This document shows positions 50 to 35,602 of a stretch of DNA of 41,768 nucleotides, one piece after another. The DNA lies in contig CADALT010000018.1 of assembly GCA_902788785.1 (NCBI GenBank), forward strand, positions 1 to 41,768. The letters are read 5' to 3'. The translations under genes were made by a program, and so were the position numbers. Each line of letters starts with the position of its first letter. The stretch's first letter is position 1. The DNA is from an uncultured Ruminococcus sp. (GTDB taxonomy: Bacteria > Bacillota > Clostridia > Oscillospirales > Ruminococcaceae). The notes under the pieces are model-generated. The model did no database searches and was not told the origin of the DNA. It saw nothing but the letters and a program-made list of their open reading frames with translations.

Positions 50-178
50 ACTATTCACTATTCATTTTTCGCTATTCATTATTCACTTAGCAGGCTCTTT
101 GCTAAATAACACAAAGACACTTCTGCTGTGATACAACAGAAGTGTCTGTATAAAACTTCTTTATAGAGCCTGCGCTTA
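50..178 (+). repeat. palindromic intergenic repeat, left copy (MITE-like)
   Basis: An array of TATTCAC/TATTCATT units (about 50-88) leads into a palindromic element at 89-176. Its outer arms are AGCAGGCTCT and AGAGCCTGC, and a nested perfect 11-bp hairpin has arms at 115-125 and 137-147. The inverted counterpart is at 35603-35731; I count 4 differences over the 88-bp core and 2 over the next 39 bp. The nested hairpin lies just past the end of the biosynthetic operon and could terminate it. No transposase is associated. Confidence 0.85.
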
Positions 179-200
179 AGGAACTGCTGCCTTTTTTTTT

Positions 201-212
201 ATAAGCGGTATG
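201..212 (+). repeat. ATAAGCGGTATG tail repeat, left copy
   Basis: ATAAGCGGTATG follows the left palindromic repeat and a GCGCTTAAGG..CTGC segment. The same 12-mer, preceded by a similar segment, recurs in the same orientation at 35831-35842. It therefore marks the outer edge of the repeat family on both sides. Confidence 0.6.
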
Positions 213-215
213 CTA

Positions 216-1211
216 TCAGAGCATATATGAATCGGTATAAGCGGTCTCGATCTTTACGGGCGGACCAGCTGCCTTGGTGATCGTGCCGCACATTTCGCAC
301 TGCCTGAGATGTCTGGCTTTGAGTGTGGAAGCATCGCTGTCTGCAAAGTCGATCACGGAGTTTTCCATAGCCTTTGGCCAAAGCTCGTTATACAGCTTGG
401 CATAGCTCTCGGCATTGCCCGAATACAGACGTTTCATCGGGATATTATTGCGGTATACCTCGTTATCGAAGTCATTATCTCTAAGACAGCTGAGGTGCGG
501 CTGCCATATTACATCGCCTACAGGGTCGGTCAGTATGAGATTGCCGCCGTCAGTATCTATCTTCATATCAAAGAACAGTGCAAGTGATGAGTCGATGTTT
601 TCGGTGTACTCGTTGTAATAGTCGAGTACATAGGGTATACCGTTTATTTTTCCTGTTATGACGTTCATCGCACCATCGGATACCTTGTTGGCAGTGAAGG
701 TTTCCGCACTGCCTGTGATGCTGTAAAGCACGTCCATAAGCGGATAAAGCACCTGTGAACTACAGCTCATGCGAAAGCGCAGTATCTTCCTTTCGTCGAT
801 CAGCTTACGGGCATGATGCAGAAATTCGCTGACTGAGGGCAGAAATCTGTAGAAATTATTGACAGCATACTTTGCATCTTCGCTGGCTGAGATAAGGTCC
901 TTTACTTCAAGATGATGCACTGGCTGTTCCTGTAGTACGGCTATACCTTTTTTCAGGAGCTTTTTTACAGTATTGGAGCTTCTTCCGCCCGTTATCATGG
1001 ATCTTGCAGCCATTATGACGACATCTGCATTATCTATATTTTCAGCATCGGTATAGAGCGGCACCCGATATTTTTCGGATATACTGCGGCTTTTTTCGCT
1101 GCCTTTTGAGAGTATGCCGCACAGAGAAAGCTCGCTGCTGTTCTCGATGGCGTTTATATAGAAGCTGCCGAAATTTACACCGCATACAACTGCTTTTATC
1201 TTATCACCCAT
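216..1211 (-). CDS. thiazolinyl imine reductase (Irp3/YbtU/PchG-like)
   Basis: This 331-residue NAD(P)-dependent oxidoreductase of the Gfo/Idh/MocA-like fold should reduce a thiazoline ring on the carrier-bound chain to a thiazolidine, as Irp3/YbtU does in yersiniabactin and PchG in pyochelin synthesis. The N-terminus carries a Rossmann-type segment (KAVVCGVNFGSFY). The family-typical MAARS..GG and LQEQPVH motifs follow, the latter at the start of the catalytic domain. I chose the internal ATG because it forms a TAATG overlap with the stop of the upstream thioesterase and has AAAGGTG before it; the longer reading frame would run into that gene. It is the last gene of the biosynthetic operon. 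The family is clear; the exact ring reduced is inferred. Confidence 0.88.
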   Translation of the reverse strand: MGDKIKAVVCGVNFGSFYINAIENSSELSLCGILSKGSEKSRSISEKYRVPLYTDAENIDNADVVIMAARSMITGGRSSNTVKKLLKKGIAVLQEQPVHHLEVKDLISASEDAKYAVNNFYRFLPSVSEFLHHARKLIDERKILRFRMSCSSQVLYPLMDVLYSITGSAETFTANKVSDGAMNVITGKINGIPYVLDYYNEYTENIDSSLALFFDMKIDTDGGNLILTDPVGDVIWQPHLSCLRDNDFDNEVYRNNIPMKRLYSGNAESYAKLYNELWPKAMENSVIDFADSDASTLKARHLRQCEMCGTITKAAGPPVKIETAYTDSYML

Positions 1212-1966
1212 TACTGCACCTTTCCTGCAAGACGCTGATTTATCAGGTCGCAAACTTCTTTTTTCTGGGTATCCACAAAGAAGTGACCGCCCTCACGTAC
1301 CTCAAGGCGCATCTCACCGCAAGTGACGTTCTGCCACTGTTTGGCTTTCTCGTAATCAACAGTGTGGTCCTCCTTGCCGTAAAGCACATCAAGGTCAAGG
1401 GAGAGCTTATCGTGTTCACGGTAAATGAAGGTATCGAGCATCTTGCAGTCCGCTTTCAGCAGAGGTACGTAGTATTGCAGGAACATTTCGCTCTGGACTA
1501 TCTTTTCATCGAACATACCCAGGCTCACAAGATATTCGGTTATATCGTTCTTGGCATCTTTCTGAGGAAACTCAACAAGTGAGTCCCTGAGATATTCGGG
1601 TGCTTCACTGGAAGCCACAAGTCCCCACAGGGGTTCTTTGCCTGTGAGCTCCTTGACTTTTACGGCTGCCTCATATGCGATGACCGCACCGCCGCAGTAG
1701 CCGAAGAATGCGTAGGGCATACTGAAAAGCTCGATGTTGTCATTTACCAGGTCTTCGATGAACTTATCGAAGGTCTCCTCCATAGGGTCTTTCTTCCTTA
1801 TCTCACGCTCGGGATAAAGTATGGGTATAAGGTTTATGGAGGGGTCTATCAGCTTTTTCCAGGTTGCGAAGCTGCTGGCACTTCCTCCGGGGAAAGTGAA
1901 ACAAAACAGGTTTATCTTATTGTTCTCATCAAATCTTTCATGGGCTATCCATCTGCTTTTATTCAT
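1211..1966 (-). CDS. stand-alone thioesterase with Cys nucleophile (GYCGG)
   Basis: This 251-residue alpha/beta hydrolase belongs to the NRPS type II (GrsT/RifR) thioesterase family. The nucleophile elbow, GHSMG in most members, reads GYCGG, so the predicted nucleophile is Cys91 with His228 (EGGHFF) and Asp200 (GKEDH) completing the triad. The oxyanion region is PGGSAS instead of the usual YAGGGAS. It is closely related to the thioesterase half of the TE-carrier fusion at 5296-6360, with Cys and His at the same residue numbers, so the two are paralogues. The start has AAGGAGATG upstream, and the stop overlaps the reductase start. It may release the finished chain or edit carriers. A Cys nucleophile can favour acyl transfer over hydrolysis. 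Confidence 0.87.
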   Translation of the reverse strand: MNKSRWIAHERFDENNKINLFCFTFPGGSASSFATWKKLIDPSINLIPILYPEREIRKKDPMEETFDKFIEDLVNDNIELFSMPYAFFGYCGGAVIAYEAAVKVKELTGKEPLWGLVASSEAPEYLRDSLVEFPQKDAKNDITEYLVSLGMFDEKIVQSEMFLQYYVPLLKADCKMLDTFIYREHDKLSLDLDVLYGKEDHTVDYEKAKQWQNVTCGEMRLEVREGGHFFVDTQKKEVCDLINQRLAGKVQ

Positions 1967-1981: not shown

Positions 1982-4900
1982 TCATGCGTTCAGAGCCTGT
2001 GCCATGAGCCTTATCGTCGGGCATTCATATACCTCGGGCAGTGTGAGCTTATAGCCGAATTTATTTTCAAGCTCGGTTATCAGCTTGACTATCATTACAG
2101 AGTCGCCGCCGCAGTCGAAGAAATCTTCATCGACACCGATATTATCGGTATTGAATATACTGCACCATACGTCAAACACATTCTTTTCGGTCTCTGAAAG
2201 GTCGGTATCACAGCTTGTGCTGTTTTTCTTCTCATCGATAAGCTCTGCTGCCATCTCGCCCAGTGCCTTGACATCTACCTTGCCGTTCTTGGTCAGCGGT
2301 ATCACATCGAGATACTTATAGAATGAGGGTACCATATACTTAGGGAGCTTTTTGGCAAGTGCCTCATCGAGCGTGTCCTTATCGGGGAGAGAAGCGCTGT
2401 TTTCGGGCACGCAGAACATTACTATATGCACAGACCCGTTATGGTCCGCAGCGATTACCTTTATATCCTTGGGTTTCAGGATATCGCTTGCGGCAGATTC
2501 TATCTCGCCCAGCTCTACTCTGTGACCTCTTATCTTGATCTGGAAATCCTCTCTGCCCTGGAATTCTATATTGCCATCGGGCATATATCTTCCGATGTCG
2601 CCTGTTCTGTAAAGACGTTCGCTCAGCTTTTCGGAATATACGAACTTTGCATCGGTAAGTTCCTTATCGCCCAGGTATTCAAGGGCAAGACCTTTGCCTG
2701 CGATATATATGCTGCCTGTTACCCAATCGGTAAGGGGCTGCAGCTTTTCATCGAGTATATAGAACCTCTGATTTGCCAGGGGCTTGCCATAGGGGATACT
2801 TCTTTCGTAAACGGCTTTGGGGTCGATGGGATAGTATATTGACCATATAGCCGCTTCGGTAGCGCCGCCCAGACTTATTATCTCGGAATTGGGGAAGCAC
2901 CTCTTTATATCGGCAGGCAGGTCTGTGGGTATCCAGTCGCCCGAAAGCAGTACCAGTTTGAGAGACTCTATCGTTTTCTCCTGCTCGCCTTCAATGAACA
3001 TGGTGAGCATCTTCATCTGTGCAGGCACACTGTTCCATACGGTGATGTTTTGTTTGCGCACAAGTTCGAGCCAGTGGGCAGGGTCTTTTGCAAGGCTCTC
3101 AGTAGCTTGTACAAGCTCTGCGCCTGCATAGAATGCTCCGAATATATCGTATACGGAAAGGTCAAAGCCCAGATTTGCCAGACCCAGCAGACGGTCCTTT
3201 GAAGTCACGTTCCAGCGCTGATTTATATCGAGGATAGTGTTCGATGCCGCCTCGTGGGAAATAACAACGCCCTTGGGAGTGCCTGTACTGCCTGATGTGA
3301 AGATAACATAGGCAGGTGATGAAAGCTCGGGGGCATCGGGGACTATCTCAGTATCATCAGCTTTTTCAAGCTTTGTGATGTCTATTTTCTTTGAGATGCC
3401 GTCGCTGACATAGTCATAGTTTTCGAGCAGGATATACTTGGTGCCAGAGGTGGTAAGTATCTTTTCTGCTCTTTCGGAGGGCTGATGTACATCAAGCGGC
3501 AGGTATGTTCCGCCCAGAGTAAGTATCGACAGTACGGCGGCTATCTGCCAAACGCCTTTGGAGATGGATAATGCAGCTATCTCGCCCTTTTTGAAACCTG
3601 CCTCACTGAGCGCTCTTCTGAGTGTGACGGTATACGCTGCCAGCTCACGGTAGGAGTAGGTGGTGCCGTCATTATAAAGCGCAGGTGCATCGGGTGTTTT
3701 TTCAAGACTTCTCATAAAGCCGTCATAGAGATATGTGGCTTCTATTTTCTGCTCGGTACTGTTCACCTCGTCTCTCACCTTCTGTACCTTTTCGGGGAGC
3801 ACGGTGAATATACTGCTTTTCAGTCCCTCGGGTGATGCAAGGCGGATGACGTTATTGCGGAATATCTCAAAGGCATTCTCGATAAGTCCCTCGGGGAACA
3901 CGCCCTCACGAACGTCCCAGTTAACACGCAGTCTGCCGTTGACTTCAAGCACCTGACAATCTATGAGTACCTGCGGTGTCATGCTGATGGTGTAGAGCAG
4001 TCTGCCTATACGGTCTATCTCGGTATTCATAGCGCCGAGGGTACTGGTGAATACCGCAGGCACGACTATCTCGCCGTGAGTATGGCGGCTAAGCTCTCTT
4101 AATACCTCTGTACCCGAGAACGCATTGTGTCCCAGGTCTTCCCAGAGCCTTGCCTGGAGTGCCTTTGCCTCGTCGAGATAAGTTTCGTAGCCCTTATCCT
4201 CAGCCGCAAGTATGCTTGCGATAGTAAAGTCGCCAACGACTTTTCTGATGTCGGGGTGTATCTCGGGTCTGTCGGACATGGTGACATCTATGCAGAAGGA
4301 CTTGTTCGAGGATATAGCCCTGAGAGTTTCAACATAAGCTGTAAGCACAAGATTTGATGGCGTTACCTTTTCGCTGCGTGCTGTGTCACAAAGGCGAGTG
4401 TATACATCATTTTCAAGGAAAAACAGGTGCTGCTTGAAAAGCACCGCATCATTGCTTACGTTTCCAAGGGTGGGGAATACGGGGGCAGACGGCATAGTTT
4501 CAGCCTTTTCGAGCCAGTATTCCTTATCCTGTTCATACTTGCGTATACCCTCGGCTGTCTTTTTCAGGTTCTCACGGTGGATAACGATATCCCTGAAAGT
4601 AAGCTCGGTGGTTTCGGGCTTTTTCTTGTTGTAGTAGTTATCCTCGAACTCATCGAATATAAGGTTTATGCTGACGAAATCCGCCACAAGCATATCCAGC
4701 GAGAAATGCAGCATATACCTGTCTTTAAGCACAGTCATCTCCAGGTCGAACTGCGGCCATGTTCCTGCTGGATACTGTTTGAGAGTAAGCTCTCTGCGCT
4801 TGTCAGCGAGATATTTCTTCTCTTCGTCATCCCCCATAGAGCTTACATCTGTCAGCTTTATCGCAGGGACGGTATACTCCTTGAGGACTCTCTGCACGCC

Positions 4901-5299
4901 CTTTGATTCTATCACAGCGTGGAGCATCTCATTACGGGCTATTACAGCTTCCCATGCTTTCTGCACCTTTTCATAGTCCAGCTCATCGAACTCAAATTCG
5001 GAATATATCTTACAATTTGTTCCGCCGTATTTGTAGAGCGAATCCTGTCCTACCAGATAGGAGGACTGGATATCTGTCAGTGTAAATTCATCGTAGATAT
5101 GTTCCTTGTCGATTATCACACCGTTGTCGCTGTGCTTTGACAGATACTCGATTATACGTGGCTTGTTTTCTTTAAGTACAGCCTTGTCCTGTTCTGTAAA
5201 CGTACCCTTGGGTGCGCTGAATTTCAGTTTATCTCCGTTAAGAGAAAGCTCAACACCTTTCTGTCTGTATGACAGAAGCAGTTCCTCAATACTCATCAT
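1982..5299 (-). CDS. NRPS module: TubC-type docking-Cy-A(Cys)-PCP
   Basis: This 1105-residue protein forms one cyclisation module. Residues 1-55 match a TubC-type N-terminal docking domain (GVELSLNGDKLKFSAPKG). The Cy domain (about 70-500) has the heterocyclisation motif DxxxxDxxS at D202/D207/S210 in place of HHxxxDG. The adenylation domain (about 520-1000) has core A3 TSGSTGTPKG, and its pocket reads D-L-Y-N-L-S-L-I-W, the cysteine code of yersiniabactin-type synthetases. The PCP attachment serine is Ser1067 (CGGDS). It should add and cyclise a cysteine taken from an upstream carrier. There is no C-terminal thioesterase. The start overlaps the preceding stop (ATGATGA), with GAGGGAG before it. 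Domain calls are by motif. Confidence 0.93.
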   Translation of the reverse strand: MMSIEELLLSYRQKGVELSLNGDKLKFSAPKGTFTEQDKAVLKENKPRIIEYLSKHSDNGVIIDKEHIYDEFTLTDIQSSYLVGQDSLYKYGGTNCKIYSEFEFDELDYEKVQKAWEAVIARNEMLHAVIESKGVQRVLKEYTVPAIKLTDVSSMGDDEEKKYLADKRRELTLKQYPAGTWPQFDLEMTVLKDRYMLHFSLDMLVADFVSINLIFDEFEDNYYNKKKPETTELTFRDIVIHRENLKKTAEGIRKYEQDKEYWLEKAETMPSAPVFPTLGNVSNDAVLFKQHLFFLENDVYTRLCDTARSEKVTPSNLVLTAYVETLRAISSNKSFCIDVTMSDRPEIHPDIRKVVGDFTIASILAAEDKGYETYLDEAKALQARLWEDLGHNAFSGTEVLRELSRHTHGEIVVPAVFTSTLGAMNTEIDRIGRLLYTISMTPQVLIDCQVLEVNGRLRVNWDVREGVFPEGLIENAFEIFRNNVIRLASPEGLKSSIFTVLPEKVQKVRDEVNSTEQKIEATYLYDGFMRSLEKTPDAPALYNDGTTYSYRELAAYTVTLRRALSEAGFKKGEIAALSISKGVWQIAAVLSILTLGGTYLPLDVHQPSERAEKILTTSGTKYILLENYDYVSDGISKKIDITKLEKADDTEIVPDAPELSSPAYVIFTSGSTGTPKGVVISHEAASNTILDINQRWNVTSKDRLLGLANLGFDLSVYDIFGAFYAGAELVQATESLAKDPAHWLELVRKQNITVWNSVPAQMKMLTMFIEGEQEKTIESLKLVLLSGDWIPTDLPADIKRCFPNSEIISLGGATEAAIWSIYYPIDPKAVYERSIPYGKPLANQRFYILDEKLQPLTDWVTGSIYIAGKGLALEYLGDKELTDAKFVYSEKLSERLYRTGDIGRYMPDGNIEFQGREDFQIKIRGHRVELGEIESAASDILKPKDIKVIAADHNGSVHIVMFCVPENSASLPDKDTLDEALAKKLPKYMVPSFYKYLDVIPLTKNGKVDVKALGEMAAELIDEKKNSTSCDTDLSETEKNVFDVWCSIFNTDNIGVDEDFFDCGGDSVMIVKLITELENKFGYKLTLPEVYECPTIRLMAQALNA

Positions 5300-6360
5300 A
5301 TCTCTCCCTCATCAGTATAATTGTCTTTGATCTCGTCTTTCTGTCTGACCAGTTCATCTATGCAGCCTGCAAGTGTTTTTACATCACCGCAGCCGAAAAC
5401 ATCGGTGATCTTTAGCTCAACTGCGTATATGCGGCGCACCTCATTTATCAGTCTGACCGCTTTGAGTGAATCGCCGCCCGACAGTATGAAGTCGCTTGAT
5501 CTTGTAAAGCCTGTTTTGCCGAGCAGGTCTTCCCAAAGGCTTAGGACAGTTTTTTCGGTGTCGCTAAGCTCTGTGGCATCATCAGCATCGATCTTTACGG
5601 CGGCTTTCCTGCCTGTTTCGGATAATCTTTCGTTAAGCCGTGAGAATATATATTCCTTCTGGCTGTCCACCAGAAAATGTCCGCCGTCACGCTCGATGAT
5701 GCGTGTTTCACCGTCGGTGAGACGGTTCCAGCGCAAGGCTTTTTCACCGTCCACCTTCGGGTCATCGGGACATATTAGCACATCAAAGTCACAGCTGAGT
5801 TTATCATGCTCCTTGAAATCATAAGAATCAAGCAGGTCGTGGTCTGCTGTGAAAAGCGGCTTATAGTAGTCCAGAAAGACCTTGTCATGCAGGGTCTTTT
5901 CATCTATGAACGGCAGTGCCGAAAGATGTTCGAAGAAAAGGCGCTCTCGGTTCTCGTCGGTTATCTTCGGCACAGACTCATGCAGAAATTCAGGAGCTTC
6001 GCTGGATATTATCATTCCGTACTCGGGCTCGGTGCCGTAAAGTTCTTTTACCCGCACCGCCGTTTCGTATGCTATGACAGAACCGCTGCAATAGCCAAAG
6101 AACGCATACCTTTTGCGGAATATATCCTCAAGCGATACTGCCAGATCATCGACAAAAGTCTGCATATCCTTGTACATAGGTTCTTTGATGCGCTTTTCAC
6201 GCACGGGATAAAGTATCGGTATCAGGTCGATATCCTCATTGAGAGAATACTTCCATGATGAAAAATAGCTGGCGCTGCCTCCGTCAAATATAAAACAAAG
6301 CAGCGATAATTTATTGCCCTCGGTCACATTTTCGTGAGCTATCCATTTATTTGCTTTCAT
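5296..6360 (-). CDS. thioesterase-carrier protein fusion (Cys-type TE + PCP)
   Basis: This 354-residue protein joins two domains. Residues 1-245 are a type II-like thioesterase with a GYCSG elbow (Cys91 instead of Ser) and His228 (DGGHFL). Residues 262-340 are a peptidyl carrier domain with Ser298 in SGGDSLKA. TE followed by PCP is the reverse of the usual order, in which a thioesterase ends a synthetase. The C-terminus is acidic (YTDEGEI) and resembles that of the large NRPS upstream (TDEDEFEI); both could dock to the TubC-type domain of the next protein. It lies between the two NRPS genes, with TAGGAGAG before its start and its stop overlapping the next gene. It may pass the chain between synthetases or hold it during release; this is inference. 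Confidence 0.88.
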   Translation of the reverse strand: MKANKWIAHENVTEGNKLSLLCFIFDGGSASYFSSWKYSLNEDIDLIPILYPVREKRIKEPMYKDMQTFVDDLAVSLEDIFRKRYAFFGYCSGSVIAYETAVRVKELYGTEPEYGMIISSEAPEFLHESVPKITDENRERLFFEHLSALPFIDEKTLHDKVFLDYYKPLFTADHDLLDSYDFKEHDKLSCDFDVLICPDDPKVDGEKALRWNRLTDGETRIIERDGGHFLVDSQKEYIFSRLNERLSETGRKAAVKIDADDATELSDTEKTVLSLWEDLLGKTGFTRSSDFILSGGDSLKAVRLINEVRRIYAVELKITDVFGCGDVKTLAGCIDELVRQKDEIKDNYTDEGEI

Positions 6361-6376: not shown

Positions 6377-9300
6377 TCATATTTCAAATTCGTCTTCATC
6401 GGTCTCGGTGCTGCCTGCATTGGCGGCTTCAACAGCCTTTGCGAGCATTGCCAGCGTTCCTGCTGTGAATACTTCCTTAACGCTTATCTGTATACCGAGA
6501 TCTTTCTTTATGCCATTTACTAGGTAGATGGCTTTGAGGGAATCGCCGCCTGCGATAAAGAAGTCGTCATCGGCATACACGGGTGAATAGCCCAGTACAC
6601 GTTCCCAAACAGGTGCGATCTGTTTTTCGGCACCGTCTGAAAGGGGAGTTTTCCTGCGCTTTTCAGAGCTGCTCTTGATGCTGCGGGACATCTCGTACAT
6701 TAAAGCAGTGTCGATCTTTCCGTTTGATGTGAGCGGAAATTCTTCCAGATGTACAAATTTTCCGGGGACCATATAAGCAGGCAGTCTGTCATGCAGCTCA
6801 CGCTTCAGTTTTTCCTCGGTCTCGTCGGTATATTCGCCGTTATAGCGGAAGAATACTATCAATATGCCGTCACGGAAAAGTATCTTGCCGTCAGATACAT
6901 TTTCGAGTTTATCTACCGCAGCTTCTATCTCGCCTATTTCCACACGATATCCGTTTATCTTGATCTGGTTATCAAGTCGTCCCAGGAATTCGATGTTGCC
7001 ATCGCTCCAGTATCTGCCCATATCGCCTGTGTTGTACATATACTCTCCCGTTACAGGGTGTATGATGAACTTTTCACGGGTCTTTTCGCTGTCGTTGAGA
7101 TATCCCATAGCAACGCCCTTGCCTGCGATGAATATTGTTCCTGCCACTCTGTCGGGACGGTCGGCAAGGTGTTCATCGAGTATGTAATACCTCTGGTTGA
7201 GCAGCGGTTTGCCGTAGGGGATGCTTGTCCAGTTCTCGGGTATTTTTTCTGTTACCTCGTAGATGTTTGACCATATGGAGGCTTCTGTTGCACCGCCCAG
7301 CGAAACGAACCTGAGCTTCGGGAACAGTTTCCGGATCCTCTCGGGCAGAGTTGTGCTTATCCAGTCACCGCTGAGCAGCATGATCCTCAGGGAGCTTTCA
7401 GCGCTGTAGTTTTCGCCGTTAAGGTATTCGCAGAGCATTTCTGCAAATGCAGGTACACTGTTCCACAGAGTTATATGCTCTTTTTCTACAAGGTCTATCC
7501 AGTGCTCGGGGTCTTTGTGCTTGTCGCTTTCGGGCACTACGATCTTGCCGCCTGCTGCCAGCAGACCGAATACATCATATACCGAAAGGTCAAAATGCAT
7601 ATTCGATATGGCAAGGCACGCATCTGTCTGCGAGACCTCAAATCGGCTGTTGATATCCTCGATGGTATTCACAGCACCCGAATGGGGTATCATTACGCCC
7701 TTTGGTATGCCTGTGCTGCCCGAGGTGTAGATAACATATGCAAGTTTCGATGGATCGTTTTTCGCTGCGATGCTGTCGTCCTCACAGGGAGCTGTGGTCT
7801 GTGCATCTATCAGTTTGTATTTGCCGAAAGTATCGAGCCTTCCGTCGGCAAGGTCTTTGTAGATCATCTTGTCAGTGCCGCTGTCGTTGAGTATGGTAAT
7901 AAGTCTGTCATCGGGATTTGATATATCCAGCGGCAGATATGCACCGCCCGAAAGCAGTATGCCCAGTGCAGCGATGATCTGTTCGGCGCATTTCGGCATT
8001 AGTATAGCCACAGTCTCGCCCGGCTTTATGCCGTATGCGAGCAGCTGCTTGCTTATACCCAGTGCTCTTGCCTTGAGCTCGCTGTAGGTATACCTCTTGT
8101 CAGCGCACACAAGTGCAGTATTATCGGGATACTTTGCCGCTGCTTTCAGGAACATTCCGTCAAGCGTATCTTCGGGAAGTTCCTTGTCGGTCATATTGGC
8201 ATTTTTTCTCGCCTCGCTGAGTTTTACTTCTATCAGGCTGTGAGCCTTTTTGTCAAACAGGCTGCTGTCAGCTGAAAGTCTTCTGAGAAGGTCTGTATAT
8301 GCTGCGAACATCTCATCTATGAATCCCGGATAGAAGATGTCCTTCAGGCTGTCCCACGACAGCTGTAATCCGCCGTCTCTTTCGACCACCTGATGATCGA
8401 GCCAAACCTGTGGTGTCTGGCTGATATTGTATGTGAGTTCACCGATGCACTCGTTATCCGCCTGACCGTTAAGACCGATACCGCTGGTGAATACCACAGG
8501 CATCAGCGAATCCTTTGAATTGCCCGTCTTATGCCTGAGTTCTCTTTCGAGGTCCACGGCACTGTAGCAGGAATGTTCAAGGTCTCTTGCCAGCTGTCTG
8601 GCTATTTTGCGGGCTCTGTCTGCAAAGGTCTCCTGATCGGAATTTCTTATCTCAAGCAGTGTCAGGGTAGTAAAGTCGCCGAACAGCTTGTTTACATCGG
8701 GGTGCAGCGGCTTGCGGTCGAACTGTGTAAGGTTAAGTGTAAATTCGGGTATGGAACTTCTCGAACGCAGAGTTTCGGTATATGCTGCTATGAGAAGTAC
8801 CGATGGAGTAAGCTCAAAGTGTCGTGCGCTCTCACGCAGGCTTTCCCACTCGTTCTTTGTAAGGAAGGCTGAATGGCGCTCAAAGTGCTGGTCGGTGATC
8901 TCACTTTCTTTCTTGACCGTAGGCAGCGCAGGTGCAGGCAGGAAATCGTCGATACGCTCCTCCCAGTATGCCTTATCTTTTTCGTATTTGCCCGAGTTCT
9001 TGATATTTTCAAGCCCCAGTACATAGTCACGGAAAGATATCTCCAAAGGCTTGTCCTCACGGAAAGTACCCTTGTAGCGCTTAGCCCATTCATCGAGCAC
9101 GCCGAACATACTGAAACCGTCAAATACGATGTTATCAAAGCTTACGAATATCCTTGATCTGCCGTCAAATTTTGCAGCTCTTATATCGAACAGCGGCCAT
9201 TTCTCAATGTCGATGACCTGATGGGACATATTCTCTCTGACATTTGCAAGCTTTGCATTCAGTTCAGTCTCGGGTATGCCGTCAAGGATCATTGTGTCTA

Positions 9301-14008: not shown

Positions 14009-14012
14009 TAGA

Positions 14013-19886: not shown

Positions 19887-19920
19887 TATGATCTTTCCTT
19901 TCCGATCGTTTAGGTAACAT

Positions 19921-22236: not shown

Positions 22237-22275
22237 AATACCGACGTTTTATCGGATTTACAAAACGTCGGTATT
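22237..22275 (-). terminator. intrinsic terminator of the ABC pair operon
   Basis: Perfect 14-bp arms (22237-22250 and 22262-22275) enclose an 11-base loop. On the minus strand the hairpin is followed by ATTTTATTTTT. It lies 10 bases after the stop of the second ABC gene and isolates it from the biosynthetic operon. Confidence 0.9.
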
Positions 22276-25811: not shown

Positions 25812-25831
25812 AAGTTATACTAGACTAACTT
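25812..25831. promoter_or_regulatory. 20-bp operator-like dyad before the ABC pair (site 3)
   Basis: AAGTTATACTAGACTAACTT has near-perfect dyad symmetry and contains the GTTA-N8-TAAC unit at 25814-25829. It overlaps the only -10-like sequence I see before the ABC pair (minus-strand TATAAC). A TTGACC lies too close (14 bases) for a normal promoter, so this operon may also be read from the TetR promoter. Confidence 0.65.
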
Positions 25832-25851: not shown

Positions 25852-26469
25852 TCATATGCCCAGTATTTTTTTCCATCCTGCCGAGAAGAATTCTTCTATG
25901 GTCTCTGCATAGTGCAGTGCCTGTTCCTCGGTGAAATCGTGTTTTACTGCCTCGTACATTGCTGATACGTTTGCTGTTACCAGCATATGGAACTCCAGAT
26001 GCGAAACTTCTCTCAGTTTCATATTATAATCATTCAGTTTATCGAAGTATTCCGCATCGAGCTTTTCTTCCATCAGTGCCATATCATGGATAAAGTTCTC
26101 GTATTTTGTTCCCTGCGAACAGCATACCAGCAGCTTGAATACATCGAAATTCTGATAAATAAAGCTCATTACCCACTGTGTCTTATTTTCAGCTTTAAGC
26201 AGTGCCTGTTCGTTAGCCAATACTTTCAGGCGTTCATATTCCTTTATGCTGGCTTTATCATAAAGTCCTCTTAATTCGCAAAGAGTCGGCTCGACAAGTG
26301 ATGCAAACATTTCTTCCTTGTTCTCGAAATGTCTGTACAGAGCGCCTACGGTAATACCTGCATCAGCAGCTATTTTCCGCATTGAAGCATTTTTAAATCC
26401 CTGCTCCAAAAACTCCTTTTTAGCGGCAGCGATTATTTTCTTATTATTCTCGCTTTTATCTCTGGGCAC
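25852..26469 (-). CDS. TetR/AcrR family transcriptional regulator
   Basis: This is a 205-residue repressor-type protein. The N-terminal helix-turn-helix (about 10-55) shows the typical AAKKEFLEQGFKNASMRKIAADAGITVGALYRHF pattern split over helices 1-4. The rest is a helical ligand domain ending FFSAGWKKILGI. I use the GTG start (then PRDKSENN) because GGGAGGT lies 8 bases before it; the longer frame would begin inside that ribosome binding site. It lies just upstream of the ABC pair in the same direction. Paired operator-like repeats flank its own promoter, suggesting autoregulation. Its ligand could be the metallophore, but this is inference. Confidence 0.92.
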   Translation of the reverse strand: MPRDKSENNKKIIAAAKKEFLEQGFKNASMRKIAADAGITVGALYRHFENKEEMFASLVEPTLCELRGLYDKASIKEYERLKVLANEQALLKAENKTQWVMSFIYQNFDVFKLLVCCSQGTKYENFIHDMALMEEKLDAEYFDKLNDYNMKLREVSHLEFHMLVTANVSAMYEAVKHDFTEEQALHYAETIEEFFSAGWKKILGI

Positions 26470-26491
26470 AAGTATCACCTCCCGATTTTTA

Positions 26492-26567
26492 AGTGAGCGC
26501 TGTTCACAAACAGAAATATTATATCACTTAAATATGCGCTTGTCAAGGTATGTATACAGCGTTTACT
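26492..26567 (-). promoter_or_regulatory. tetR-type promoter with two flanking operator repeats
   Basis: Minus-strand TTGACA (26546-26541), a 17-base spacer and TATAAT (26523-26518) with TGA before it form an extended -10 promoter. Downstream lies the dyad AGTGAGCGCTGTTCAC (26492-26507). Upstream, the minus-strand sequence AGTAAACGCTGTATAC (26552-26567) matches it at 12 of 16 positions. Two such sites around a promoter are typical of TetR autorepression. They differ from the GTTA-N8-TAAC sites. Confidence 0.75.
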
Positions 26568-30424: not shown

Positions 30425-30453
30425 TTGACAAACAATGTTCAGTATGATATAAT
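30425..30453 (+). promoter_or_regulatory. promoter of the ECF transporter operon
   Basis: TTGACA (30425-30430), a 17-base spacer, and TATAAT (30448-30453) preceded by TGA form an essentially perfect extended -10 sigma-A promoter, about 60 bases before the S-component start. Confidence 0.88.
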
Positions 30454-30522: not shown

Positions 30523-31113
30523 ATGAATGAAAACAAACTCAAGGCAAAAGATTTTATAACCATAGGTATATTTACTGCGCTGGTATTCATTGTGGAGTAT
30601 GCTTGTGGTATGTTGGGCTTTATCCACCCTTATTTTATTGCTTCTTATGTAATTCTGATACCGATAGTCGGTTCGATCCCCATGATGCTGTTTTACACAA
30701 AGGTTGAAAAATTCGGAATGATAACCATAATGTCGGTGCTGATAGCAATAATCATGTTCGTTACAGGCATGGGCTGGCTCGGTGCACCCCTTATCATAAT
30801 ATCCGGACTGATAGCAGATCTGATCGCTAAAAAGGGCGGCTACAAGAGTTTCAAAATGACAGCCCTCAGTCATGGCGTATTCTGCCTGTGGATATGTGCA
30901 AACTATTTCCCGGTTATCGTAACAGCTGATAATTATCGCAAGAACCTGATCGACGGTGGTTTCTCAGCAGATTATTGTGATGCACTTTTCAGTGTCATCA
31001 ACGCAAAAACTATAGCTATCCTCCTGATCCTTTGCATTGTATTCGGTGTTGTAGGCGCATTTGTCGGCAAGGCTGTTGTAAGAAAGCACTTTGAAAAAGC
31101 AGGTATCGTATGA
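30523..31113 (+). CDS. ECF transporter S component, MptD/Trep_Strep-like
   Basis: This 196-residue integral membrane protein has about six hydrophobic segments. Its N-terminus (KLKAKDFITIGIFTALVF) is typical of the MptD / Trep_Strep family of ECF substrate-binding components. The S component determines what the transporter imports; for this family the substrate is not established to my knowledge. AGGAG lies 8 bases before the ATG, and the stop overlaps the T-component start (ATGA). The island setting and shared operators suggest import related to the metallophore or its metal, but this is inference. Confidence 0.87.
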   Translation: MNENKLKAKDFITIGIFTALVFIVEYACGMLGFIHPYFIASYVILIPIVGSIPMMLFYTKVEKFGMITIMSVLIAIIMFVTGMGWLGAPLIIISGLIADLIAKKGGYKSFKMTALSHGVFCLWICANYFPVIVTADNYRKNLIDGGFSADYCDALFSVINAKTIAILLILCIVFGVVGAFVGKAVVRKHFEKAGIV

Positions 31114-31814
31114 GAAAGCTCGAGCTTGACCCACGTACAAAGCTGTTCATGATATTTGCCATGTCAATGATAGTTATGGTGCCCGCATTTAGCACTCTGC
31201 AAATGGCGATACGTATAATAGTTACCGTAATACCCATACTGCTGATGATGCTGGAGGGCAAATATGCAGCGGCGATACGCTTTGCGGTATTGTATGCTGC
31301 TGCGCTCATATTACAGCATTATTATCTGTCTGTGGAGTCAAGGGGCGTATTTTCGGCACTGATAACAGGCTATTGCAGTATCGTCGTACAGTTCATGCCT
31401 GCGATGATAACCGCATGGTACGCTATCAGGACCACAAAGATAGGTGACTTTATGTCGGCTATGCAGAAGATGCATATACCTGACGGAGTGTCCATTTCGC
31501 TGGCGGTGGTCATGAGATTTTTCCCTACCATCAAGGAGGAATACGAGAATATAAACGATGCCATGCGCATGAGGGGCATCGCTATGGGCGGCGGCAAGGT
31601 GACAAAGATGATCGAATACCGCCTTATCCCCGTGATGTTCTCGTGTGTGAATATAGGCGACGAATTATCGGCGGCGGCTGTTACCAGGGGGCTTGGTGCA
31701 CCCATAAAGCGTACCAGCGCCAGAGAGCTTAAACTCAGGGCTGTGGACTATGCCACTATGGCAGTTTTTGCCGTATCAACAGTCTTATTCATGGCTGCAA
31801 AAAATATCGGGTGA
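31110..31814 (+). CDS. ECF transporter T component (EcfT/CbiQ-like)
   Basis: This 234-residue membrane protein begins with the usual KLELDPRTKLFMIF motif and has several transmembrane segments. It carries two Arg-Gly coupling motifs typical of EcfT (AMRMRGIAMG and AAVTRGLGAP), which contact the ATPases. It links the S component to the A-A' ATPase encoded next. It is coupled by ATGA to the S gene and lies 7 bases from the ATPase gene. Confidence 0.92.
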   Translation: MRKLELDPRTKLFMIFAMSMIVMVPAFSTLQMAIRIIVTVIPILLMMLEGKYAAAIRFAVLYAAALILQHYYLSVESRGVFSALITGYCSIVVQFMPAMITAWYAIRTTKIGDFMSAMQKMHIPDGVSISLAVVMRFFPTIKEEYENINDAMRMRGIAMGGGKVTKMIEYRLIPVMFSCVNIGDELSAAAVTRGLGAPIKRTSARELKLRAVDYATMAVFAVSTVLFMAAKNIG

Positions 31815-31821
31815 TATACAT

Positions 31822-33324
31822 ATGATAAATATAAATAACGTGAACTTTCACTACAAAGGCTCAAAAGAGGCAGGACTGCACGACTTTTCGCTTGATATAA
31901 AGCCGGGGGAGGCTGTACTGCTGTGCGGTGCATCGGGCTGTGGAAAGACCACTATACTGCGCCTTATAAACGGGCTTATCCCTCATTATTACAAGGGTGA
32001 GCTTGAGGGAAGTATAAATGTAAACGGCAAAGATGTGCCTAATAGCGAGCTGTATGACCTTGCGAGCGTTGTGGGTACGGTCTTCCAGAATCCCAGGAGC
32101 CAGTTTTTCTCGGTGGATACGGACGGCGAGATCACTTTCGGCAATGAGAACTTAGGCATCGAGCCGAAAGAGATAATCAGAAGAAAAGATGAAGTCGTAA
32201 ACGAGCTTGAACTGGGACCATTGCTCGGCAAAAGCCTGTTTGAGCTTTCGGGCGGCGAAAAGCAGAAGATAGCCTGCGCAGGTGTTTCGGCACTGATGCC
32301 CGAGATAATGCTGCTCGATGAACCTTCCTCAAACCTGGACTGGAAAGCCATAGATGAGCTGAAGGAAGTTATAAAATACTGGAAATCAAAAGGCAAGACG
32401 ATAGTCATATCGGAACACCGCTTGTGGTATGTGAAGGATATCGTTGACAGAGTGATATTCATGAAAGAGGGCAGGATAGAGCATGAATGGAACAGCGAGG
32501 AGTTCGACAGCCTGACCACGCAGGATCTTTCAGAGCTGGGGCTCAGACCTACCTCTGTGGAAGAAAAGTATATCAAGGAATTTGGTCAGGGCATATTCTC
32601 GGAAGATGAAGACTCGGATAATAGTATAAAACGATACGAAAACGGCGTTACACTGAAAGATATGTACTTTACCTATGATATGCCGAAATACTTTTTCCGT
32701 AAGAAAAAGCTCAATGCCGCTGATTCGGCACAGTACACCCTCGCCATACCCGAACTTGAACTGCCCCGTGGAAAAGTCATCGGGCTTATCGGAAAAAACG
32801 GTGCAGGCAAAACGACTTTCCTGAGATGCATCTGCGGTCTTGAAAAGGACTGCACGCTGAAAATAACCTCTGACGGTGAAACCGTCACGGGCAAAAAGAT
32901 AGTGAAAAAATGCTACATGGTCATGCAGGACGTTAACCACCAGCTTTTCACTGACAGCGTAAGGGCAGAGGTAATGCTCTCGATGGACGAGGAAGATAAG
33001 GCGAAAGCTGACAAGATAATCAGTGATCTCGGACTTTACGGATATGAGGACACTCACCCCATGGCTTTGTCGGGCGGACAGAAGCAGCGTGTTGCGATCG
33101 CATCTGCACTTGCGGCAAACAGCGAGATACTGCTTTTTGATGAACCGACATCAGGGCTTGACAGAGCGCATATGATGGCTGTGGCAGAAATGCTCACGGG
33201 GCTTGCGAAGGATAACAGGGTCATCATCGTATCGACCCACGACCCCGAGCTTATCTCGCTTTGCTGTGACTATACTCTCTGTATTGAAAAAGGCAGGCTC
33301 AAATATTTGAGAGAATGTCAGTAA
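31822..33324 (+). CDS. ECF transporter A-A' fused ATPase
   Basis: This 500-residue protein has two ABC ATPase domains in one chain. Domain 1 has CGASGCGKTT, LSGGEKQK and LLDEPSSNLD. Domain 2 has GKNGAGKTT, LSGGQKQR and LFDEPTSGLD. The fusion replaces separate EcfA and EcfA' subunits. I use the ATG after GGGTGATAT; an upstream in-frame ATG lies inside the T gene. A strong terminator follows, so S, T and A form a closed operon with a dedicated ECF module and not a shared group II module. Confidence 0.93.
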   Translation: MININNVNFHYKGSKEAGLHDFSLDIKPGEAVLLCGASGCGKTTILRLINGLIPHYYKGELEGSINVNGKDVPNSELYDLASVVGTVFQNPRSQFFSVDTDGEITFGNENLGIEPKEIIRRKDEVVNELELGPLLGKSLFELSGGEKQKIACAGVSALMPEIMLLDEPSSNLDWKAIDELKEVIKYWKSKGKTIVISEHRLWYVKDIVDRVIFMKEGRIEHEWNSEEFDSLTTQDLSELGLRPTSVEEKYIKEFGQGIFSEDEDSDNSIKRYENGVTLKDMYFTYDMPKYFFRKKKLNAADSAQYTLAIPELELPRGKVIGLIGKNGAGKTTFLRCICGLEKDCTLKITSDGETVTGKKIVKKCYMVMQDVNHQLFTDSVRAEVMLSMDEEDKAKADKIISDLGLYGYEDTHPMALSGGQKQRVAIASALAANSEILLFDEPTSGLDRAHMMAVAEMLTGLAKDNRVIIVSTHDPELISLCCDYTLCIEKGRLKYLRECQ

Positions 33325-33334
33325 GATCATACTG

Positions 33335-33371
33335 AGCATCGTACCAAGATACAATTGGTACGGTGCTTTTT
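33335..33371 (+). terminator. intrinsic terminator of the ECF operon
   Basis: The stem pairs AGCA.CGTACCAA with TTGGTACGGTGCT around a short loop (33335-33366) and is followed by TTTTT. It lies 10 bases after the ATPase stop. Confidence 0.88.
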
Positions 33372-33388
33372 GTTATGCGGTGCTGTGC

Positions 33389-33473: not shown

Positions 33474-34151
33474 ATGGCGGATAAATATATCAGGAATATG
33501 CGTTTGGCGTTTTTGGGTCTTGTGGGCGCAGTGTTTTTTATGGCGGGGGACTGCCTTATATTTTGCAAGGCAGGGCTGACAGATCAGACAGTGGAACCGC
33601 TTTGGGCGCAAATGGCAGAGCAGAGGTTCATTATCTCGACGGTGCTGGGATTTATCGGCATGGTGCTCATGCTGCCTGCCTGGATAAGCTTCCGCCGCAT
33701 GATAGCCGATACCTGCAAGAGGGCAGTATGTGTGATGACCGATTTGAGTTTTATCGGTGTGGTATCGACGGGATATTTGCATTTTGCCTATGGGTCATTA
33801 CTGCCGCTTACCTATAAAGCGGTGCTTGGCGGCGGCGGAGATGTTAAGCTTGCAGGCGAGGTCTGCGAGCATATTTGGGCGGTGATGACCCCGGTAAATA
33901 TAGTGCTTACCATGTGCTTGTGCATGATATTTGCTGTGCATTTTTATGTGACGGTGTCGGGGCGTTCGGGGCTGAAAAGGTTCAGCTGTCTGCTGGGGAT
34001 ATTGGGTGCGTTCGCTGTAGGTCTGCTGTGGAGGGGCATTTTCGGAAACTCTGCCATAGGCGGTGCATACGGCGCATTTGAGAGCTTAGGTGAAGGACTT
34101 ACCTACCTCACGGCAAGTCTTTACTGGAGAAAAAGATGGAGGACTGCATGA
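33474..34151 (+). CDS. hypothetical multi-pass membrane protein
   Basis: This 225-residue protein has about six hydrophobic segments (for example LAFLGLVGAVFFMAGDCLIF near the start) and ends with a basic tail. I do not recognise the family with certainty; similar small membrane proteins in Firmicutes carry only a DUF label. It starts an operon with the alpha/beta hydrolase and another membrane protein. Its stop overlaps the hydrolase start (ATGA). Its promoter carries the island-wide operator motif, which suggests a role in the same system. Confidence 0.75.
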   Translation: MADKYIRNMRLAFLGLVGAVFFMAGDCLIFCKAGLTDQTVEPLWAQMAEQRFIISTVLGFIGMVLMLPAWISFRRMIADTCKRAVCVMTDLSFIGVVSTGYLHFAYGSLLPLTYKAVLGGGGDVKLAGEVCEHIWAVMTPVNIVLTMCLCMIFAVHFYVTVSGRSGLKRFSCLLGILGAFAVGLLWRGIFGNSAIGGAYGAFESLGEGLTYLTASLYWRKRWRTA

Positions 34152-35065
34152 TACACGAAAACTTTACAATGAAAGAACACGGCTTTGTGGGACATCTGGC
34201 ATCTCCCGACGGCGGAAGCGACAAGGCTGTTATAGTAATTATGGGCGGCGAACAAAGTATACTGCCCGGGATAAAATTTGCCGAACGTTTTGCCGATCAT
34301 GGTATAACGGGGCTTGCGGTGTCGCTTTTCGGGGCGCAGGGTCTGCCTGAGTCGCCCGACAGGATACCGCTGGATATGTTCGTCCCTGCGGTCAGGTATC
34401 TCAGGGAGAATAAGGACATAGAGCATATCAGCGTTTACGGGCAGTCGATGGGTTCCATATTCGCAATGCTTTGTGCCAGGTATATAGGCGGTTTTGAAAA
34501 GCTTATAATGGTATCTCCCACACACGTGCCATTTGAGGGTACTGATGCCGATAAAAAGCATATGACGGGGCACAGTGTCGTTACCCTGCACGGGGAAGAA
34601 CTGCCTTTTGTTACGGCTGATTTTTCGGGCATAGGTGCAGTCAGCTATTACCGCCACCATGCAGTGCCTTATAAGGTGACAGGTATGTGGGCGGCGTACT
34701 ACAAAGCCTATTGCGATAAAGAGGCGGTAAAAAAGGCTGAGCTGGAGATAGAAAAGTGTGATGCGGACATACTGCTGATAGCAGGGGCTATGGACGAATG
34801 CTGGTATGCGGAGTATTCGGTGAAGAAGCTGGTTCAAAGGCTTAAAGCGAAGAACTTCGGCAGACAGGTCAAGACCATCATATATCCTCACGGCAGCCAT
34901 CTTAACGGGCTGATGCCCAACCGCAGGCGTGAGAAAAAGCTTTACCGCATGATGCCCCTCATCGGGTTGATGTACAGGACTTTCGGAAGATACCGCAGAG
35001 AGAACATGGGATATATACAGCGCTCCGAGAGGGAGATAATCAGCTGGATAAAGGGCAATATGTGA
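34148..35065 (+). CDS. alpha/beta hydrolase, BAAT/acyl-CoA thioester hydrolase C-terminal-like
   Basis: This 305-residue protein is a serine hydrolase: GQSMG nucleophile elbow near residue 100, an Asp in AGAMDECW and a His in YPHGSHLNG, the layout of the BAAT C-terminal / dienelactone-hydrolase-like group. I start at the ATG in the ATGA overlap, since GGAGG lies just before it; an ATG four codons upstream is possible. No signal peptide is visible, so it is cytosolic. It may cleave an ester or thioester, perhaps of an imported metallophore, but the substrate is unknown. It is in the operon carrying the shared operator. Confidence 0.82.
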   Translation: MIHENFTMKEHGFVGHLASPDGGSDKAVIVIMGGEQSILPGIKFAERFADHGITGLAVSLFGAQGLPESPDRIPLDMFVPAVRYLRENKDIEHISVYGQSMGSIFAMLCARYIGGFEKLIMVSPTHVPFEGTDADKKHMTGHSVVTLHGEELPFVTADFSGIGAVSYYRHHAVPYKVTGMWAAYYKAYCDKEAVKKAELEIEKCDADILLIAGAMDECWYAEYSVKKLVQRLKAKNFGRQVKTIIYPHGSHLNGLMPNRRREKKLYRMMPLIGLMYRTFGRYRRENMGYIQRSEREIISWIKGNM

Positions 35066-35080
35066 TAAGGAGTGCAAATT

Positions 35081-35581
35081 ATGTTTTTAACGATAATACT
35101 TATGCTGATAAACTGTGTGATGCTTTTTCTTATGATACTGGCGGCAACGATATTTATGCCGTACCGTGGGCTGGCGAAGAATTTCCCTGAGGATATTCAG
35201 CAGCGTCTTGTGCCGAGGCTTGATGAGATAGACAAAAAGCCTGCCGCCCCGAGGATAGTGGGCGCAGTCATCATGATAATGCTGTGCATCGGCTTTTGTG
35301 TGAGCTTTGTCATAGGTTTTGCTGACGGCAGAGCAAACGGCTTTACTTTCTCAGGACACCTTGCAAGGTCGCTCATCATGGCTTTTGGCGTTAAAGCCTT
35401 CGATATAATAGGGCTTGATTATTTCCTGCTGACCAAAACACATTTCTTTCAGCATTTTTTCCCCGAGACTGAGGGCTGTGCAGGCTGGAAACAGTTCGGC
35501 TACAACCGCAAGCAGCAGCTAAGGCATTGCGTGTTCATGCTGATAGCTTGCGTGGTGATCTCATATCTTGTCAGCAGATAA
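35081..35581 (+). CDS. hypothetical membrane protein
   Basis: This 166-residue protein has hydrophobic segments near the N-terminus, in the middle (RIVGAVIMIMLCIGFCVSFV) and at the end, so about four membrane spans. I do not recognise the family. The ATG has AAGGAG 8 bases upstream; an in-frame GTG three codons earlier overlaps that site. It is the last gene of the operon begun at 33474. The palindromic repeat that closes the island begins 21 bases after its stop. Confidence 0.75.
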   Translation: MFLTIILMLINCVMLFLMILAATIFMPYRGLAKNFPEDIQQRLVPRLDEIDKKPAAPRIVGAVIMIMLCIGFCVSFVIGFADGRANGFTFSGHLARSLIMAFGVKAFDIIGLDYFLLTKTHFFQHFFPETEGCAGWKQFGYNRKQQLRHCVFMLIACVVISYLVSR

Positions 35582-35602
35582 GAACTTATGTGACAGCATA
35601 AT

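Follow-up and report, generated by a model that had tools for sequence, protein, structure and literature searches.

The window analyzed here is the whole 41,768-nucleotide contig CADALT010000018.1 (C18) of an uncultured Ruminococcus sp. (assembly GCA_902788785.1), a draft genome of 2.95 Mb in 67 contigs that is 90.57% complete, and it carries a gene island that probably forms a siderophore system of equibactin/coelibactin type under iron control. Positions are given in window coordinates and genes are numbered g1 to g28 along the window, the core set of the island comprising 19 genes (g1-g16 and g19-g21). Profile searches placed 13 genes in a minus-strand run from 21899 down to 216, with g13 first and g1 last. 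A further minus-strand run lies upstream (g16-g15-g14, a TetR regulator and two ATP-binding cassette (ABC) half-transporters), and a plus-strand run (g19-g20-g21) encodes an energy-coupling factor (ECF) transporter. In the following list and below, NRPS stands for nonribosomal peptide synthetase, Cy, A and C for cyclization, adenylation and condensation domains, PCP and ArCP for peptidyl and aryl carrier proteins, and TE for thioesterase.

216..1253 (-): g1, thiazolinyl imine reductase homologue of Irp3/YbtU type, without fused methyltransferase (TIGR01761 175.1 bits; PDB)
1211..1966 (-): g2, stand-alone TE with Cys nucleophile GYCGG (PF00975, motif, orthologues)
1982..5299 (-): g3, NRPS, TubC_N docking-Cy3-A3(Cys)-PCP3 (Pfam, motifs)
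5296..6360 (-): g4, TE (GYCSG) fused to a PCP, with C-terminal tail ...TDEGEI
6377..14023 (-): g5, 2548-aa NRPS, ArCP-Cy1-A1(Cys, methyltransferase-fold insert)-PCP1-Cy2-A2(Cys)-PCP2, with tail ...DEDEFEI
14013..15674 (-): g6, aryl-acid-AMP ligase with non-canonical pocket HNFPTGDPG (TIGR02275, PDB)
15644..16318 (-): g7, 4'-phosphopantetheinyl transferase (PPTase; PF01648)
16315..17040 (-): g8, type II TE (GHSMG), in one group with its type II counterparts from related clusters
17061..18344 (-): g9, stand-alone condensation protein (IHLISDG)
18370..19656 (-): g10, stand-alone condensation protein (FHLITDG) sharing 64% identity with g9
19677..19925 (-): g11, free carrier protein (GGNSF; PF00550)
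19960..21087 (-): g12, Sacchrp_dh NADP-binding protein (PF03435, 1.6e-9), the Pfam family reported for EqbM and SrbE
21147..21899 (-): g13, type II TE (GHSLG), first of the biosynthetic run
21960..21975: exact match to the GTTAG-N6-CTAAC palindrome, upstream of the biosynthetic run
22075..22090: GTTAG-N6-CTAAC site with one mismatch, upstream of the same run
22140..22168 (-): promoter-like TTGACA-17-TATAAT, 12/12, before g13; element also in G717 and G718 (see below)
22237..22275 (-): terminator-like hairpin after g14
22285..24054 (-): g14, ABC half-transporter of membrane domain-ATPase layout that pairs with g15; assigned the YbtQ role from its position alone
24018..25790 (-): g15, ABC half-transporter, YbtP-like
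25814..25829: GTTAG-N6-CTAAC site with one mismatch, just upstream of g15
25852..26478 (-): g16, TetR-family regulator, conserved in G717
26518..26546 (-): promoter-like site, 12/12, upstream of g16-g15-g14
30178-30193: GTTAG-N6-CTAAC site, the third near the ECF operon
30425..30453 (+): promoter-like site, 12/12, before the ECF operon
30461-30476 and 30480-30495: two GTTAG-N6-CTAAC sites with one mismatch, between the ECF promoter and the start codon
30523..31113 (+): g19, ECF S component, Trep_Strep/MptD family, EqbH position (PF09605 203.6 bits; TIGR02185)
31110..31814 (+): g20, ECF T component CbiQ, EqbI position (PF02361)
31750..33324 (+): g21, duplicated ECF ATPase CbiO-CbiO, EqbJ position
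33334..33368 (+): terminator-like hairpin after the ECF operon

A sequence-only reading of this DNA had proposed a yersiniabactin/pyochelin-type metallophore pathway with Cy domains, three cysteine-type A pockets, an aryl-AMP ligase and an ArCP, and this proposal is supported by domain content, motifs and the alignment to the pyochelin protein PchE. The D-x4-D-x2-S motif is kept in all three Cy domains (g5 residues 232 and 1630, g3 residue 202), and each of the three A domains has a cysteine signature, located by motif anchors rather than structure and judged against Table 1 of PMC3672683. The g5 protein begins with the ArCP, its residues 22-985 align to PchE and the insert in A1 is placed as in PchE, while the attachment serine is kept in all six island carriers. 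For g6, the best PDB matches are 2,3-dihydroxybenzoate (DHB)- and salicylate-AMP ligases, and for g1 the only PDB matches at E 0.001 are Irp3/YbtU. No polyketide synthase (PKS) family and no cis TE was detected by Pfam in g3 or g5, apart from a single weak match to a carrier-type family that bears a PKS name; g3 ends in PCP3, and the TEs of the island are separate proteins. The g12 protein has relatives in the related clusters of genomes G637 and G665 (21-24% identity); its AlphaFold2 model, with a mean predicted local distance difference test score of 46.9, was not used. The idea that g1 is inactive through a His-to-Gln change at the residue corresponding to Irp3 His101 was dropped, since the G637 homologue, which passes the TIGR01761 cut-off, also has Gln.

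The island was further compared with two loci found by a g10 scan of a named genome collection, both in metagenome-assembled genomes labelled Ruminococcus (G717 and G718), one of them from sheep omasum. In G717, 18 of the 19 core genes are present in the same order at 76-93% identity, and in G718, which is placed in the same family as the source genome but in a different genus, 13 of 13 genes are present at 77-98% identity before the contig stops after g13. The ECF operon of G717 directly follows the TetR gene, without g17-g18 between them; ABC proteins with weak likeness to g17/g18 appear roughly 12 kb beyond, and within the 54-kb G717 stretch none of g22-g28 turned up. Because g17-g18 and g22-g24 are not at the corresponding place in G717, the shared core was taken as 216-33324, which narrows the extent of 176-35600 first proposed; g25 and g26 were left out of the island for the same reason. 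Both the source contig (window 1-216) and the G718 contig (C48 1-82) end just past g1, which may point to a repeat there. Counting the source genome itself in each case, g1 matches were found in 3 of 297 same-family genomes (the source genome, G035, which is the G718 contig, and the distant sister cluster G103) and in 2 of 398 genomes of the phylum. For g12 the figures were 1 of 29 in the genus, 3 of 398 in the phylum and, with its profile at a stricter limit, 1 of 394 in the order. Therefore, the attribution to cellulolytic gut Firmicutes at large was too wide. No relative of g1 was found among viral contigs, the window had no Rfam match at the gathering threshold, and the base composition of the island gives no sign of foreign origin (G+C of 46.5%, against 48.0% in the right flank and 46.1% in 77.5 kb of other loci of the source genome).

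The machinery for hand-over and release consists of separate proteins. The free carrier and the two stand-alone condensation proteins proposed earlier are indeed encoded (g11, g9 and g10), and the four TEs are g2, the N-terminal half of g4, g8 and g13, a count that understated the matter, since the nucleophile is Cys in two of them and one forms a fusion with a carrier. The Cys nucleophiles of g2 and g4 are kept in all three island genomes, and our reading of the alignment places the Asp and His of the triad as well. In a tree of 15 TE sequences, to be taken as indicative since the G665 sequence was shortened and the G637 protein is cut by a contig end, g2 and g4 group with the Cys-TE of G103 (support 0.977), apart from the Ser-type g8 and g13. 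Cis TEs with Cys were seen in Anaerococcus (GHCIG) and G665 (GHCVG), and G637 has AVCVG. A Cys-TE is thus a trait of several such systems, and what is unusual in the island is its predicted action in trans.

Additionally, the acidic C-terminal tails of g5 and g4 occur in all three genomes, and g3 starts with TubC_N. The upstream proteins of four related clusters end in RTEGEL, MEEGEL, YEEEII and VEVGEIE, and their partners begin with TubC_N by Pfam in G637 (whose pair lies on two contigs assumed to form one cluster) and G103, or with a similar start by eye in G665 and Anaerococcus. Among the six island carriers, that of g4 is closest to PCP2 of g5 (35%, 1.3e-16). From these features, g4 could be a detached copy of the end of the upstream module, able to dock on g3 and provided with its own acyl-transfer domain. 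TE-catalyzed transfer from carrier to carrier is known from LgnA, with CmaE as an acyltransferase-like case (PMC8748450; here and below, statements on published work refer to the available portions of the papers). The cassette g9-g11 lies mid-operon between g12 and g8 in all three genomes. Both condensation proteins have the motif xHxxxDG, not the (D/H)HxxxDS of the OaaC group in PMC13142362, and the structure of g10 is a C fold that is not diagnostic of subtype, the best structural matches being the starter-C domain RzmA, with other C and Cy domains trailing by about 2 Z units. In G103, the sister thiazoline cluster (L039:3633-19498 and L040:1-11318) also has a free carrier and two stand-alone C proteins, which are only 17-24% identical to those of the island, and it further encodes an ECF transporter, two TubC_N domains, a Cys-TE and a member of the L-2-amino-thiazoline-4-carboxylate hydrolase family; its 43-kb contig encodes no protein with g6 as best match.

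With regard to transport, the YbtP/Q-like transporter named by the sequence-only reading has a possible counterpart for its YbtP half in g15, for which YbtP is the best half-size transporter among the PDB matches listed (278.1 bits). P-glycoprotein-type chains outscore YbtP for both g14 and g15, and the YbtP/Q label of the pair rests mostly on context. The make-up of g19-g21 (S component, T component and duplicated ATPase) is that annotated for EqbH/I/J of equibactin (PMC8754150), a likeness by annotation rather than by sequence orthology, and it agrees with the earlier choice of equibactin as the closest named layout. EqbHIJ is required for equibactin-dependent iron import (PMC3672683).

Promoter-like sites matching 12/12 positions precede each of the three island runs, with a fourth before g22, and terminator-like hairpins follow the g14 run and the ECF run. 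However, a scan of 21800-36200 gave 38 promoter-like sites against 28.0 expected (standard deviation 5.1) and 22 terminator-like sites against 11.0 (standard deviation 3.4), a background so high that single sites are not proof. A palindrome, GTTAG-N6-CTAAC, was counted as well. With at most one mismatch it occurs seven times in the window (starts 21960, 22075, 25814, 30178, 30461, 30480 and 33426) against 0.97 expected, a number reached by none of 100 shuffles, six times in the G717 locus (L035) against 0.35 and three times in that of G718 (L038) against 0.04, although these counts are not independent evidence because the motif was chosen after seeing the intergenic sequences. All seven window sites are intergenic, where intergenic DNA makes up 6.9% of the window; the site at 33426, before g22, falls beyond the core, and the g16 promoter has none. 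The G717 sites comprise three before g13, one before g15 and two between g16 and g19, and an exact palindrome stands upstream of g13 in all three genomes.

The genome-wide counts are less affected by the choice of the motif. The whole source genome has 23 exact sites against 1 for a reversed-pattern control, and nine other genomes have 3 to 38 sites against 0 to 6 for the control. The neighbors of the 22 exact sites other than that of the window were read in 15 regions (L059-L073), with 20 neighboring proteins searched against Pfam, and nine of the regions have a metal or Fe-S gene at the site. These genes encode a flavodoxin; a DtxR-type repressor; a Trep_Strep ECF S component; a ZIP transporter; FTR1; a ferredoxin; pyruvate:ferredoxin oxidoreductase (255 bp off); an ECF ATPase/T component; and FeoA, FeoB and a second DtxR-type repressor in one region that carries four sites. 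Because feoAB, the DtxR-type genes, those for FTR1 and flavodoxin and others share this palindrome, membership of the island in the iron regulon of this bacterium is probable, with GTTAG-N6-CTAAC as the predicted operator. Two more ECF genes of the source genome that carry the palindrome, the Trep_Strep S component (L063:1912-2478) and a CbiO-CbiO-CbiQ protein beside a TetR gene (L072:258-2462), are possible further importers of iron complexes. Other operators were tried and rejected. The DtxR consensus TTAGGTTAGGCTAACCTAA had no match in the window with up to 3 mismatches, and the best hit of a looser scan (15/19) was equalled or beaten by the best of 27 of 500 shuffles; two TTAG..CTAA spacings gave no match, nor did TTAGTT-N8-AACTAA in L035. 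A search of the literature for DtxR iron-regulon binding motifs of Clostridi- or Ruminococc- taxa returned no paper.

Among described systems, equibactin (eqbA-N of Streptococcus equi ICESe2; PMC3672683) shares most with the island. Both have an aryl-AMP ligase, a PPTase, a type II TE, an ArCP-led Cy NRPS and a second Cy NRPS with three Cy domains in total, a thiazoline reductase or its homologue, a Sacchrp_dh protein (EqbM), a fused permease-ATPase pair (EqbKL) and an ECF importer, and in neither was a PKS or a salicylate synthase found. In the equibactin system a single A domain stands against three carriers, the TE is in cis with Ser-to-Ala, the local regulator is of DtxR type and the ligase pocket has Cys (PMC3672683), whereas the island has an A domain in each of three modules, Cys-TEs in trans, a TE-PCP protein, the g9-g11 cassette, a TetR regulator and an Asp pocket; neither a TE-PCP protein nor a free carrier or a stand-alone C protein is named in the available description of equibactin in PMC3672683. 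Two differences that had been claimed fall away. The island indeed has no PKS part, but neither has EqbG, and the contrast drawn from its lack of a cis release domain does not hold, given the Ser-to-Ala change in the EqbG TE (PMC3672683). Distinctness from equibactin therefore draws on the other features just listed, though G637 too has A domains in both of its NRPS proteins; the shared control sites and the odd aryl pocket are additions made here. It should be stressed that equibactin, the C. kluyveri (CKL) cluster and coelibactin were compared with the island by published descriptions, not by sequence alignment.

The setting itself is not new, as equibactin-like clusters have been reported in gut anaerobes by antiSMASH (Ruminococcus sp. 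B05 and Mediterraneibacter gm002, human faeces; PMC6328661, PMC6675978). NRPS cluster 1 of C. kluyveri was likewise named as equibactin-like (PMC3672683), as was, by antiSMASH, an island of C. difficile RT023 in a study that called siderophore synthesis rare in anaerobes (PMC6814731). Only the Anaerococcus prevotii cluster was compared by sequence among these anaerobe clusters; located on pAPRE01 (L057:18045-40087; a plasmid typed as conjugative), this equibactin-like cluster has an NRPS, a second protein that ends in a cis Cys-TE, and a metal-dependent regulator, and the place of the ECF set is taken by an oligopeptide/nickel-type ABC importer. Coelibactin, sorangibactin and mupirochelin share with the island aryl-azoline/thiazolidine chains, Sacchrp_dh proteins (SrbE, MchE) and ABC proteins (PMC10127202, PMC10080011), as well as a Cys-nucleophile TE in sorangibactin and coelibactin and a thiazolinyl imide reductase (MchI) in mupirochelin. 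On the other hand, sorangibactin and mupirochelin have a cytochrome P450 and separate methyltransferases, neither of which was seen among g1-g21, and the sorangibactin Cys-TE is in cis, while those of the island are in trans (PMC10127202). OaaC/VibH-type proteins (PMC13142362) resemble g9/g10 in their stand-alone C fold, free carrier and intact second His, and differ from them in motif, in that g9 and g10 are two paralogues, and in that these lie inside a thiazoline operon. With pyochelin and yersiniabactin the island shares ArCP-Cy-A-PCP, the A1 insert, an Irp3-like reductase and a YbtP-like transporter half, and it differs from these two systems in having no salicylate synthase seen, no cis TE, an ECF importer and a third Cys A domain. 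The yersiniabactin synthetase includes a PKS, and the island has none. By its Sacchrp_dh protein, ECF importer and Cy chemistry, the island would belong to the equibactin/coelibactin type, although it has neither a cis TE nor a known aryl pocket. The available text of the equibactin literature (PMC3672683, PMC12971057, PMC8754150, PMC10080011, PMC6328661, PMC6675978, PMC6814731) describes neither this island nor its trans release cassette, and the same holds for the island in the portions at hand of the literature on Ruminococcus siderophores or metallophores and rumen gene clusters; the available text of PMC8241843 contains no siderophore words. Nor is a fully trans release cassette described in the thiazoline-siderophore literature examined, as far as its accessible text extends.

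Taken as such a siderophore system, iron-regulated and of the equibactin/coelibactin type, with assembly, trans release, export and ECF import, an explanation to which we give a probability of about 0.75, the island would work as follows; we infer its chemistry, the direction of transport and the regulator that binds. The g6 ligase would activate an aryl acid and load it on the ArCP of g5, whose module 1 would add and cyclize Cys, possibly epimerizing it through the PchE-like insert, and whose module 2 would add a second Cys. The chain would then pass to g3 through the acidic-tail/TubC docking pair, and g3 would add and cyclize a third Cys, g1 would reduce one thiazoline to a thiazolidine and g12 would perform the step for which EqbM and SrbE, of the same family, are needed. 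In fact, omission of EqbM from the E. coli reconstitution caused loss of product activity (PMC3672683), and deletion of SrbE abolishes sorangibactin, where the Sacchrp_dh step is of unknown function (PMC10127202). In trans, the chain would be taken over as a thioester by the Cys-TEs g2 and g4, the latter bringing a PCP2-like carrier and a docking tail of its own, and the free carrier g11 with g9/g10 could couple it to a soluble amine or to a second chain, with the Ser-type g8 and g13 editing misloaded carriers. Export would fall to g14/g15, as suggested for EqbKL, and import of the iron complex to g19-g21, as shown for EqbHIJ, and an iron-responsive repressor at the GTTAG-N6-CTAAC sites probably sets expression.

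Several observations weigh against this explanation. The family models are not reached at their cut-offs by g6 (TIGR02275, 478.1 bits against 723.55) or by g1 (175.1 bits against 188.8), so that the thiazolinyl imine reductase claimed for g1 stands by its PDB matches and falls short by TIGR01761, and g14 matches MsbA (261.9 bits) and YbtP (260.7 bits) effectively equally, which makes the YbtP/Q label weaker than first stated. The A1 insert may be an epimerase, as guessed from PchE (134-397 to 1080-1333, E 9.5e-8, 34.9 bits, partly carried by the end of the A domain), or a methyltransferase (Methyltransf_12, 28.8 bits, under the cut-off of 30). At the g6 pocket position that is occupied by Ser in DHB enzymes and by Cys in salicylate enzymes, all three island genomes have Asp, while the residue is Cys in the G637, G665 and Anaerococcus clusters; read in this way the island pocket fits neither the salicylate nor the DHB code. 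No salicylate, isochorismate or other aryl-acid synthase was seen in the three draft genomes, because each has one chorismate-binding gene, which in the source genome, the copy inspected, reads as TrpE; in contrast, a chorismate-binding gene adjoins the G665 cluster. As the starter, anthranilate would be compatible with this, and so would an acid acquired from the surroundings; equibactin production in defined medium likewise needed added salicylate, the product itself not having been identified by LC-MS (PMC3672683). Moreover, g7 is not intact in G717, where about 215 bp lie between g6 and g8 and a 68-aa frame matches g7 over 19 residues (G717:C29 85600-85816), so that its role there would have to fall to another PPTase. 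Finally, the palindrome was picked after viewing intergenic sequence, and six of the 15 site regions (L060, L061, L064, L067, L069 and L070) have no clear iron gene, L061 having an ABC half-transporter.

The same pathway could instead yield a product mainly for zinc or copper capture or for metal-dependent antibiosis rather than iron nutrition. For mupirochelin, of the same family, LC-MS suggested zinc chelation, and its genes are repressed when zinc is in excess (PMC10080011), which also tells against an iron siderophore here, and a ZIP transporter lies beside one palindrome region. However, the palindrome is also found by feoAB, FTR1, flavodoxin, ferredoxin and two DtxR-type repressors, which form an iron-starvation set, and EqbHIJ, an importer of like make-up, carries iron, so that a role centered on zinc or copper seems quite improbable. 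A different doubt concerns the cassette, as g11 with g9/g10 might form a separate small pathway, such as one for an OaaC-type fatty-acid amide, that merely lies in the same operon. This is unlikely, although somewhat less so than the zinc or copper role, since the core offers g11 no acyl-activating partner except the aryl ligase, the acyl-ligase-like g25 being outside the core and not found in the G717 stretch. Besides its constant mid-operon place in the three genomes and its xHxxxDG motif, the occurrence of a like trio in the G103 thiazoline cluster, albeit at 17-24% identity, speaks for a part in the same pathway.

It is harder to dismiss that g2 and g4 are ordinary editing or hydrolytic-release TEs without carrier-to-carrier transfer, a doubtful yet serious possibility, given that their best solved relatives are type II TEs such as RifR, with YbtT lower down, and that the Cys, Asp and His of the triad are in place by our alignment. 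Against this, Ser-type g8 and g13 are already present, g4 has its own PCP2-like carrier and docking tail, and Cys nucleophiles in TEs are reported to be uncommon and to go with acyl transfer or with unusual modes of release, as in ObiF; in sorangibactin the TE Cys is essential, Cys-to-Ser abolishes the product and an outside nucleophile was proposed (PMC10127202). Returning to the siderophore explanation, a more specific form of it can be offered tentatively, at slightly under even odds, in which the starter is neither salicylate nor 2,3-DHB, a Cys-TE moves the chain to the g4 carrier and then to g11, and g9/g10 finish it as an amide or dimer. Candidates for the starter would be anthranilate or a 3-substituted relative, as well as a phenolic of plant or host origin taken from the gut.

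Other genes of the window lie around or between the core runs. A MacB-like ABC permease and ATPase (g17, g18; 26638-30141) stand between the TetR gene and the ECF operon. The acyl-AMP ligase-like g25 is followed by a GDSL lipase, g26 (36133-40051), whose C-terminal dockerin upholds the earlier description of the host as a dockerin producer. A pyridoxamine-phosphate-oxidase-like protein (40202-40678) has weak similarity to Nim nitroimidazole reductases, far under the curated cut-off. The contig ends in the N-terminal part of a phage-type integrase (41314-41766), which is 8 kb away from the island, with no link to it shown.

Within a class that is already known, the points of interest are the apparent membership of the island in an iron regulon, the unusual aryl pocket and a release machinery divided among separate proteins. 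If the siderophore explanation is true, a group of dockerin-bearing gut anaerobes would have a siderophore circuit of their own, and the island would be a testable case of siderophore uptake via an ECF transporter. Additionally, the trans Cys-TE/carrier/condensation cassette would give a handle on the unsolved release of equibactin/coelibactin-type chains, and the palindrome provides a predicted iron regulon for these bacteria.

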